64,000 nt of DNA from assembly GCA_017408485.1 (NCBI GenBank), contig JAFQUM010000030.1, positions 1 through 64,000 on the forward strand, in the 5' to 3' direction. The notes below the pieces were generated by a model. The model saw nothing but the letters and a program-made list of their open reading frames with translations. It ran no database searches and was not told the origin of the DNA. A program made the translations under genes and the position numbers. This document shows, piece by piece, positions 47,290 to 49,927 of the stretch (its first letter is position 1; each line of letters begins with the position of its first letter). This stretch comes from Clostridia bacterium. Lineage in GTDB: Bacteria > Bacillota > Clostridia > Oscillospirales > Butyricicoccaceae.

Positions 47290-47535
47290 TAAAATAAAAA
47301 AAGCCTCCGTCCTTAATAGGGACGAAAGCAAACTTCCGCGGTACCACCCTGATTTTCCGCCATAAGCGGAACACTCTTCATCGCCTTGACGCGGCGGCTT
47401 CGGTATCTGCCTACCCACAAACGCTTCAGCAGAACTGCTCCAAAGTGAACTTCACGCAAACCCTTCGCAAAACGGCTTCCAGCCTATGACCGTCTCTCTC
47501 TGTACGGCAGATATACGCTACTCTCTCTATCAACG
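47290..47535 (-). ncRNA. T-box leader, phenylalanine specific
   Basis: The conserved T-box AGGGTGGTACCGCGG reads on the minus strand at 47350-47336. Downstream is a terminator stem with seven T before pheS. Upstream, Stem I starts with the AGTAG bulge region near 47522, and the specifier loop reads GTGAAGTTCACTTTGG with codon TTC (Phe) at 47449-47447. Uncharged tRNA-Phe would pair with the specifier and the T-box bulge and favour the antiterminator, raising pheST expression. This matches the downstream genes. Confidence 0.95.
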
Positions 47536-47537
47536 CA

Positions 47538-47567
47538 TTTATAAGATATATAACACATTTGCGTCAA
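47538..47567 (-). promoter_or_regulatory. Promoter of the pheST T-box transcript
   Basis: Minus strand: TTGACG (47567-47562), 18 nt, TATAAA (47543-47538). Confidence 0.7.
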
Positions 47568-47632: not shown

Positions 47633-48169
47633 TTGAAGAGGATTTTTGCTATCGGAATGATATTGCTTGTTCTTTTCGGTTGTAAGGAGAAGGATAATAC
47701 CAAGGATATATCGGCACTCTATGATGGAGATATATCTTGTACAGTGCGTATAGAGGTGCAAAGTGAGCCTGCGGCGGAGTATATCATTTCTTTCAAGCGG
47801 GAAGCACAGCGTGATACGGTGGAGATACTTTCTCCCGCTTCGGTTGACGGAATAACCGCGCAGATAGAGAGAGGCAGTGCGGCTATTTCCTATAACGGAA
47901 AATATCTACAGACTTTGCTTCCATCATATTGGGGCGCTTCGCCTGCCGATGTAATGAGCGCGGTCTTTGACGACCTTGCCACATCCACACCCCAAAGAAC
48001 AGTGACTGATGAGCAGATAATGCTTGAATATAAGGAACTTACCGAAAGTGCAGAAATGTACCGATACGTATACCTCAATAAGGACACTCTTGCCTTTGAA
48101 AGGGCAGAAATAGAAATCGACGGCGAGGTGCTTTTGCGGGTAAACTGCACAAGCTTTCAAGCATATTGA
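47633..48169 (+). CDS. Small lipoprotein, unknown function
   Basis: 178 aa. The lipobox is LVLFGC (Cys17) after a basic start MKRIF. The mature part is beta-rich (SCTVRIEVQSEPAAEYIISF), which may be an LolA-like or outer-surface fold; this is a guess from the strand pattern. A TTG start at 47633 is used because GAGGTG sits just upstream and no other start fits. It converges on the 211-aa gene with only 6 bp between, without a clear terminator. Confidence 0.75.
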   Translation: MKRIFAIGMILLVLFGCKEKDNTKDISALYDGDISCTVRIEVQSEPAAEYIISFKREAQRDTVEILSPASVDGITAQIERGSAAISYNGKYLQTLLPSYWGASPADVMSAVFDDLATSTPQRTVTDEQIMLEYKELTESAEMYRYVYLNKDTLAFERAEIEIDGEVLLRVNCTSFQAY

Positions 48170-48175
48170 GGTTGT

Positions 48176-48811
48176 TTATTTTGTGATCTCCGCAGCATAA
48201 AGATTATGTAAGCTTTTAATAGAAGAGGGAATACAGTTCAGTGTTTCATCGTTGGGGAATATCTCGCGGAGAAAGGCAGCACCCTGTTCGACTCCTTCCA
48301 TAAAAGCTACGGCGGCTGTGGATAATATCATATCATCGTGGTAATCAAAAATGTTCTGAAAATACTCTTTGTACTCGGTGCAGATATCTTCCGACTCTAT
48401 ACCCATATACAATGAAAGCATCTCTCTTTCCGCGTCGCAATAATCGGCATTCTGCTCTGCGTCACCTGCTTCAAAAAGTTTTTCAGTAACAAGACGATCA
48501 AAAGAGTTATAAGGCAGATCGCGAATATAGAACTTCTCAAAAGCCGCACAGACCCCTCGCTTGAAAGAAAAAGACATTGAGTATCTGCAGCATTTTAGTG
48601 AGAGCTCTTCGATCTTTGAAATGATCTCCGCTTGCTCGGATGATAGTATTTTTTTGAGCGTGTTTACGCTTTTATTGTAAAGGTTAAAGCTGCTTAAAAA
48701 GGGATGATCGATCTTTCTTAATTCTTCCTCGGCTCTTTTGTAAATATCAATAAAAACTTCTTCAGAGAGGTGTGACTCTATTAATCTTGAAAGGATGGAC
48801 TTCTTTTTCAT
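48176..48811 (-). CDS. Hypothetical helical protein, 211 aa
   Basis: Not recognised. It is almost entirely alpha-helical and acidic, with no membrane segment, and has several Cys residues (LSLKCCRYSMSF). A strong promoter whose -10 enters a 15-bp inverted repeat controls it, and two XRE regulators are transcribed in the opposite direction from the same gap. It is AT-richer than most of the window. The layout suggests an inducible gene controlled by its neighbours; possible links are stress or mobile-element functions, without direct support. Confidence 0.75.
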   Translation of the reverse strand: MKKKSILSRLIESHLSEEVFIDIYKRAEEELRKIDHPFLSSFNLYNKSVNTLKKILSSEQAEIISKIEELSLKCCRYSMSFSFKRGVCAAFEKFYIRDLPYNSFDRLVTEKLFEAGDAEQNADYCDAEREMLSLYMGIESEDICTEYKEYFQNIFDYHDDMILSTAAVAFMEGVEQGAAFLREIFPNDETLNCIPSSIKSLHNLYAAEITK

Positions 48812-48827
48812 AATTGAACCCCTTTAT

Positions 48828-48885
48828 ATAATTTATGGTGGCAATGCTACCATAAATTATAATTGCATCGCCGTGTTTATGTCAA
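48828..48885 (-). promoter_or_regulatory. Promoter and inverted-repeat operator of the 211-aa gene
   Basis: Minus strand: TTGACA (48885-48880), 18 nt, TATAAT (48861-48856). The 15-bp inverted repeat 48828-48842 / 48846-48860 begins inside the -10 and covers the start of transcription, as expected for a repressor site; the nearby XRE proteins are candidates. A second small repeat, CTATTA/TAATAG, lies at 48891-48909 towards the XRE genes. Confidence 0.65.
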
Positions 48886-48942
48886 TAGTGCTATTACATA
48901 AACTAATAGTATAGCAATGAATTAAAAAAAGGCGGTGATAAT

Positions 48943-49287
48943 ATGCGAGTTAAAAAAGAAGAAAACATTCAATTGGGAAATGAGATCAGAATTGCAAGAG
49001 AAAGAGCCGGACTTACTCAGGAGCAGTTTGGAGAGATCGTATCACTTGGGGCTAAAAATGTATCGGACATAGAACGGGGAGTGACCGGTATAACTGTTTC
49101 CACATTGAAAAGAATATGTGAAAAACTCTCTGTGTCACCTGATGTTATTCTGTTCGGAAATCGTGACAAAAACGATGTGCAGTTTATCAGTGAAAGATTG
49201 GAGCGCCTATCACCGGAAGACTATAAGCCTATTGAGGTCTTTTTGAATCAGTATTTTCTCTTGATCGCAAGAAAAGGCAAAGATTAA
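48943..49287 (+). CDS. XRE family transcriptional regulator
   Basis: 114 aa. The helix-turn-helix spans about residues 10-65: LGNEIRIARERAGLTQEQFGEIV and NVSDIERGVTGITVSTLKRIC. The C-terminal 45 residues (LSPEDYKPIEVFLNQYF) likely dimerise. A GGCGGTG site precedes the start. It is followed 4 bp later by a second, unrelated XRE gene and faces the 211-aa gene. Confidence 0.9.
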   Translation: MRVKKEENIQLGNEIRIARERAGLTQEQFGEIVSLGAKNVSDIERGVTGITVSTLKRICEKLSVSPDVILFGNRDKNDVQFISERLERLSPEDYKPIEVFLNQYFLLIARKGKD

Positions 49288-49291
49288 GCAT

Positions 49292-49597
49292 ATGAAAGAT
49301 ATACTTCAAGAAATAACAAGGCTCAGAATGAAGCGCGGTTGGAGTGAATATGAGTTAGCAAAATACTCAGGACTGACTCAATCTACAATTTCTACTTGGT
49401 ATTCAAAAAATCAAATGCCCACAATTCCATCCTTGCAGAAGATTTGTGATGGGTTGGGGATAACTATGTCACAGTTTTTTGCAGAAGACGAAGACTTGAT
49501 ATCACTTACAAAAGAGCGGAGAGAAGTTCTTGATGATTGGTCTTCGTTGAATTTTCAACAGCAGAAGATAGTAAAAGACCTAATGAAAAATATGTGA
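49292..49597 (+). CDS. Second XRE family transcriptional regulator
   Basis: 101 aa. HTH about residues 5-62: LRMKRGWSEYELAKYSGLTQSTISTW with the recognition helix near STISTWYSKN, then a helical tail. It differs clearly from the first XRE protein, so it is not a recent duplicate. It ends at a terminator. Confidence 0.9.
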   Translation: MKDILQEITRLRMKRGWSEYELAKYSGLTQSTISTWYSKNQMPTIPSLQKICDGLGITMSQFFAEDEDLISLTKERREVLDDWSSLNFQQQKIVKDLMKNM

Positions 49598-49618
49598 GAG
49601 CATAATTATTTTTTTATA

Positions 49619-49644
49619 AAAACTCCTTCTACCGAGGGAGTTTT
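49619..49644 (+). terminator. Terminator after the XRE pair
   Basis: An 11-bp stem (49619-49629 with 49634-49644, one G-T pair) then T residues. Confidence 0.85.
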
Positions 49645-49726
49645 TTGTAATAGTACATTTTTTGATACTACTGTAGAGATAGTAAAAAAGGGTATTAATT
49701 CCAACTTATATATTATAAATATGTGC

Positions 49727-49755
49727 TTGCAAGGTACTATCTCTTGTGCTATAAT
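49727..49755 (+). promoter_or_regulatory. Promoter of the mazF transcript
   Basis: TTGCAA (49727-49732), 17 nt, TATAAT (49750-49755). The stretch 49645-49726 before it shows no gene. Confidence 0.8.
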
Positions 49756-49761
49756 TAACAA

Positions 49762-49927
49762 TGTATAGAACCAATCACAAGGTTTTGCGTTTTTGAATAG
49801 TATGTGTAGAGGACTTCGCCTTTCTTTGCGGTGGCGAAAATCCCGACACAGGTGATTAAAAACCGTCCCCGCGTGGAAAGATAAGATTGCGGATATGTCC
49901 GACAATTTCCTGCGGAGAGTGATATGA
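49762..49927 (+). other. Structured leader of about 165 nt upstream of mazF
   Basis: The leader runs from the predicted start of transcription to the mazF start. It contains TTCGCC/GGCGAA pairing around 49812-49840 and a hairpin CGGA-TATG-TCCG around 49893-49904. It has short frames only: an 11-codon one from about 49768, a 17-codon one near 49802 (basic, starting MCRGLRLSL), and a 10-codon one near 49895. No known riboswitch or small RNA was recognised, and no MazE-sized frame exists. Confidence 0.4.

Follow-up and report, generated by a model that had tools for sequence, protein, structure and literature searches.

Two XRE regulators face a gene for a predicted helical protein on a small AT-rich islet of a Clostridia bacterium

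Two tandem genes for XRE-type regulators (X1 and X2) and a divergent gene for a 211-aa protein (T) raise the question of whether the three form a regulatory unit and, if so, what T contributes to it. They lie within a stretch of 64,000 nucleotides from a Clostridia bacterium (hereafter, the window), where a preliminary description, made from the sequence alone, had proposed that they constitute a compact switch. Gene positions and orientations are as given there, with T facing both regulators, and all three reading frames are open and intact. The features referred to below are the following:

48170 to 49774, no strand assigned: AT-rich islet between a lipoprotein gene (ending at 48169) and the conserved leader of mazF, delimited by blastn/tblastn against 16 mazF loci and by GC content
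48176 to 48811, minus strand: T, 211 aa, predicted all-helical, probable distant DUF6809 relative
48827 to 48861, no strand assigned: candidate operator O1, TATAATTTATGGTGGCA-A-TGCTACCATAAATTATA, over the −10 box and start of T
48856 to 48885, minus strand: promoter of T, TTGACA-18 nt-TATAAT, 12 of 12 consensus bases
48891 to 48909, no strand assigned: candidate operator O2, CTATTA-CATAAAC-TAATAG (7-nt spacer), upstream of X1; the same element is present in G417:C45
48943 to 49287, plus strand: X1, 114 aa, XRE (HTH_3) regulator
49292 to 49597, plus strand: X2, 101 aa, XRE (HTH_3/HTH_26) regulator, starting 4 nt past X1
49618 to 49645, plus strand: inverted repeat AAAAACTCCTTC/GAGGGAGTTTTT followed by thymine, likely terminator of X1-X2, closing the islet

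Extra DNA between a lipoprotein gene and mazF

The GC content of positions 48176 to 49645 is 37.5%, compared with 46.4% for the window, and falls into the lowest 0.8% among segments of equal size, which bears out the deviating base composition noticed earlier. Homology to relatives upstream of mazF begins at 49775 (16 mazF loci compared). Two relatives, G005 and G015, likewise have a lipoprotein-gene homolog (47633 to 48169 in the window) ahead of mazF, with a gap between the two genes of 70 and 229 bp, respectively, whereas it is 1,759 bp in the window. Because the flanking genes are so much closer to each other in these two relatives, the stretch is, as judged by this comparison, extra DNA, and probably a small acquired islet in the chromosome of this gut bacterium. 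In G001 and G003, which belong to the same genus and contain mazF, another gene precedes it, and an exact empty site was not seen in the nearest kin. Exact repeats of 8–14 nt common to both islet ends (48100 to 48230 and 49590 to 49870) were not found, thus no target-site duplication was seen. Among the neighbors of the islet, pheS, pheT, the lipoprotein gene, and a sporulation sigma factor were recognized by eye from the sequence and mazF by Pfam, which returned no match for the lipoprotein gene. An Rfam search within the islet yielded nothing near gathering scores, and the repeat at 49618 to 49645 was absent from the list of a separate terminator scan.

Two leaders flank this region. A T-box leader (47315 to 47542, minus strand, 118 bits) lies upstream of the pheS- and pheT-like genes (assigned by eye). 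The leader upstream of mazF (49775 to 49927), common to G001, G003, G004, G005, and G015, stands behind an extended −10 promoter (49727 to 49755) and has 27 invariant columns in six sequences, with CGTGGAAA-N-ATA and GCGG...CCGAC; it matches no Rfam family and is possibly an unannotated regulatory RNA.

The T family and its XRE neighbors

Against DUF6809 (PF20648), T scored 20.6 bits, which is below the Pfam gathering cut-off of 27, so that it is not a member by this measure. The T-family member L065, at 33.4 bits, exceeds the cut-off, and a T profile aligned with a profile of eight DUF6809 sequences over 44 columns (E 7e-6, probability 84). From these matches, T appears to be a distant DUF6809 relative, a family for which a literature search found no paper. 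T is ∼2.5 times as long as DUF6809, and its halves align with each other at E 8e-4 (with a probability of only 25); it perhaps consists of two degenerate copies. A model built from nine sequences, providing the fold that the preliminary description had called for, is all-helical (pLDDT 78). Foldseek with this model retrieved no solved or viral structure at E under 0.2, and the T sequence profile retrieved nothing from the PDB at E ≤ 10; a fold match by VIA-align (best Z 7.2) was discarded as lying within the chance range for helical bundles. In the alignment of the nine sequences, E68 is the sole invariant charged residue. As few polar positions are conserved, an enzymatic role is disfavored, though possible, and T is probably not an enzyme.

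The T family is rare in the genomes searched: 10 loci were found in eight genomes, six of them among 87 genomes of the same family and two further ones among 394 of the order, a count drawn from overlapping sets (99, 394, 87, 394, and 391 genomes) and leaving out G721:C107, a weak partial match (73 positions, E 3e-5) that was the only one besides the window in 391 genomes of the class. Two further candidates, G022:C81 and G094:C12 (E 4e-4 and 6e-4, within frames of ∼730 aa), were dropped because the searches with the larger alignment A2 no longer recovered them, although only part of the genomes without a match are named there. A first scan of GTDB contigs returned nothing, and the scans together only two loci, both from ‘Candidatus Butyricicoccus avicola’, with a protein matching the two G052 loci.

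An XRE gene lies ≤170 bp from T in eight of the 10 loci (the window, G382:C127, G382:C45, G036, G431, G028, G377, and G052:C48). In G340, the nearest one is 2.2 kb away; at G052:C38, none is present in the stretch read. T and the XRE gene are divergent in six of the eight close loci and point in one direction in G377 and G382:C45, in the latter of which an X2-like gene and T are separated by 1 nt, as expected for proteins made together. All T-adjacent XRE proteins submitted (eight from seven loci) exceeded the HTH_3 cut-off, as did the two of the window. Based on HTH_3 counts, 2–3% of loci would have such a neighbor by chance, and the probability of at least eight of 10 loci within 250 bp is ∼4e-12 if the loci are treated as independent (HTH_3 density in the eight genomes), which they are not entirely, as two of the eight genomes hold two T loci each. 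When the same XRE profile was applied to controls within ∼1.5 kb, one of 16 mazF loci and five of 30 DUF6809 loci were positive; this profile was built in part from T neighbors and is to that extent circular, which is why Pfam served as a check. Across these genomes, the association of T with XRE genes is beyond chance.

What is kept is the pairing, not the set. The exact T-X1-X2 triad, for which a search of other genomes had been proposed, occurred only in the window among the searches made, and the XRE type beside T varies (X1, X2, and other kinds). Freely varying neighbors had been named as an observation that would speak against a switch; the outer neighbors of T loci do differ between genomes, whereas an XRE gene stays with T. 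In G377:C2 (L087, 3429 to 3902), a gene that is MazF/PemK-like as judged from its sequence adjoins T, as mazF lies near T in the window, which is perhaps a coincidence.

X1 and X2 are members of the XRE/Cro-CI group (HTH_3: 44.0 and 41.8 bits, respectively; Pfam cut-off 23), and neither found the other by phmmer among the ORFs scanned at E ≤ 10, in agreement with their having been called unlike. X1 relatives were found at 28 places in 87 genomes (E ≤ 1e-10, the window included). Among these 28, the nearest (72% identity) adjoins a T gene in G382:C127; for X2, the relative in the tree set with the highest identity (67%) adjoins T in G382:C45. By identity, the closest kin of both regulators are thus T neighbors in one genome. 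The X2 relative nearest by tree path (G082, 65%) has no T partner within the stretch read. The X2 tree has 24 rows, of which six are T-linked (three from one locus), 10 are linked to SLOG-like genes, and eight have an absent or unassigned partner, some of them near contig ends. The T-linked rows require three changes, and three of 500 shuffles were as low, in a tree most branches of which are unsupported.

A control region shared with YpsA/SLOG-like partners

The 131-nt gap between T and X1 contains, as claimed earlier, a strong promoter and two repeats. O1 was correctly placed over the start of T, and its length has to be revised from 15 bp: each arm has 17 bp, with a single mismatch and a 1-nt spacer. 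The −10 box of T lies at the outer end of O1, which spans the transcription start expected from the promoter. This arrangement, in which regulator and target genes diverge and an inverted repeat covers the promoter of the target, is one of the features expected of an XRE repressor module. None of 1,000 dinucleotide shuffles of the gap reached the O1 score. Because several other repeats in the window score as high, more weight falls on where O1 lies, across the promoter. The O1 core (≤1 mismatch) occurs once in G000 (1.33 Mb, assembly 64% complete), so control by this candidate operator looks local. The second, smaller repeat is O2.

The gap aligns nearly end to end with that of G417:C45 (score 117, where the best of 500 shuffles scored 42). 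Common to both are the −35 and −10 boxes of the facing gene, the half-site ATGCTACC, and O2. The other O1 half is not, and the full palindrome (≤1 mismatch) is absent from G417 and G382. The gaps of G431 and G382:C127, both with T, also align with each other (94 versus 44 in shuffles). Between the window and the X2-SLOG gap of G049, there is no clear kinship (24 of 500 shuffles as good), and the X2-type site, by pattern a CGT...ACG repeat over the partner's −10 box in four SLOG loci, was not seen in the window gap.

X1 and X2 relatives face YpsA/SLOG-like genes more often than T. For X2, these are found in G049, G008, G017, G001, G032, and G070, in the viral contig L146, and in the phage records L148–L150; for X1, in G417 (weak YpsA match), G011, G028:C11, and G015. 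The partner in L148 matches YpsA clearly (88 bits, above cut-off), a match that our SLOG profile missed; all other SLOG labels rest on that profile or on weak Pfam scores, such as the weak YpsA scores of the partners in L039 and L110. Such divergent pairs, present in the same families and in phages, resemble the window in having an X1- or X2-like regulator opposite the partner gene, at times two tandem XRE genes (L144, G417), and, in G417, the control region. They differ in the partner: T is predicted to be helical and had no YpsA match in Pfam at E ≤ 1, a search in which proteins of the kind of Bacillus subtilis YpsA, which occupy the place of T elsewhere, showed no sequence kinship to it. 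SLOG-like proteins have been described as enzymes acting on nucleotides or sensors of them (PMC9503650). Among titles and the opening lines of abstracts, a literature search revealed no recognizable description of XRE-SLOG pairs.

A tentative generalization would be that Oscillospirales possess a transferable XRE control region with an exchangeable facing “output” slot, usually occupied by a YpsA/SLOG-like protein and here by the helical T, which might then be a sensor or anti-repressor of a class not yet described, performing the job of SLOG proteins by different chemistry. The locus stands above the ordinary through the T family and this apparent partner exchange on a common control region. 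If the slot is indeed exchangeable, it offers a route to the role that SLOG/YpsA proteins have next to XRE repressors, because the same task would fall to two unrelated proteins.

A self-repressed switch and competing readings

The locus is a real, coherent regulatory islet and a variant of a common kind; what it does beyond this anatomy, we infer. The earlier proposal of a compact XRE-controlled switch gains support from the XRE genes beside T in eight of 10 loci and from the conservation of the control region in another genome. Our favored reading, in which we have moderate confidence, is that a small acquired islet carries an XRE switch of its own that represses itself, and that T is either the output kept under tight control by this switch or its partner in regulation. 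X1, together with X2 from the same transcript, would shut the strong T promoter by binding O1 over the −10 box and start, and would limit its own operon through O2; loss of the repressors' grip, upon some signal, would release a burst of T. Outside T loci, only G417 has a clearly similar control region, and as this is an X1 locus, T is most likely repressed by X1. X2 may work together with X1, at O2, or on T itself. T, helical and probably non-enzymatic, would fill the slot of YpsA/SLOG-like proteins in related modules, and it is from this place only that its role can be deduced: most likely, it binds a partner, which would be either the XRE proteins, with T serving as sensor or anti-repressor, or a host target whose engagement slows growth. 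Within this reading, the XRE-binding and the growth-modulating role appear about equally probable. Because a regulator, a promoter, and a candidate operator can be assigned to this family without described function, its function is approachable with one small construct.

That T is a toxin, neutralized as a protein and repressed by X1 and/or X2, we consider rather unlikely. Such a module would account for a strong T promoter under a candidate operator and for the abutting, co-directional X2 and T genes in G382:C45. Among the NCBIfam matches of X1 are HipB-like antitoxins, all scoring well under the cut-off, and overproduction of YpsA, a SLOG protein of the kind found in the place of T elsewhere, disrupts FtsZ assembly and blocks cell division, according to PMC6459960. 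However, T has no match to a toxin family in Pfam, NCBIfam, or PADLOC, one of 10 T genes has no XRE neighbor within the stretch read and another is 2.2 kb from an XRE gene, and the type of repressor beside T varies. In the window, T is also divergent from X1-X2, whereas toxin and antitoxin of a type II system are in one operon.

More doubtful still is a remnant of a lysogeny or conjugative-element control region, with X1 and X2 as cast-off immunity repressors and T as a leftover early gene without present function. ImmA is an anti-repressor protease, and no ImmA-type gene was recognized at the islet, nor did Pfam find a metalloprotease among the six proteins scanned from the islet and the adjoining DNA. 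In these respects the locus differs from ICEBs1, in which the Xre-family repressor ImmR is paired with ImmA (PMC8960796). In favor of this reading, the ICEBs1 regulator is the only solved relative of X1 at the limit used, and X1 resembles the HTH domain of ImmR (7t8i, E 3e-5). Gut phages contain X2-like genes, and the T locus of G028 adjoins type I restriction and recombinase-like genes (by eye). Speaking against decay, the promoter and the repeats are undamaged, as are the three genes; by eye, neither an integrase nor a phage gene was recognized next to the islet in the window, and T had no homolog in the phage collection, the plasmid collection, or viral contigs. The “phage-like” character suggested earlier is weakly supported, by the X2-like regulators present in phage records (30–52% identity) but not by T.

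Arrays of XRE genes recur elsewhere: two tandem X1-like genes stand opposite a weakly YpsA-like gene, with a window-like control region, in G417:C45 (L128/L136), three XRE genes are arrayed in G028 and three in L052, and a Monoglobus plasmid (L154, 1539 to 3294) carries four in tandem, the last of which is X2-like.
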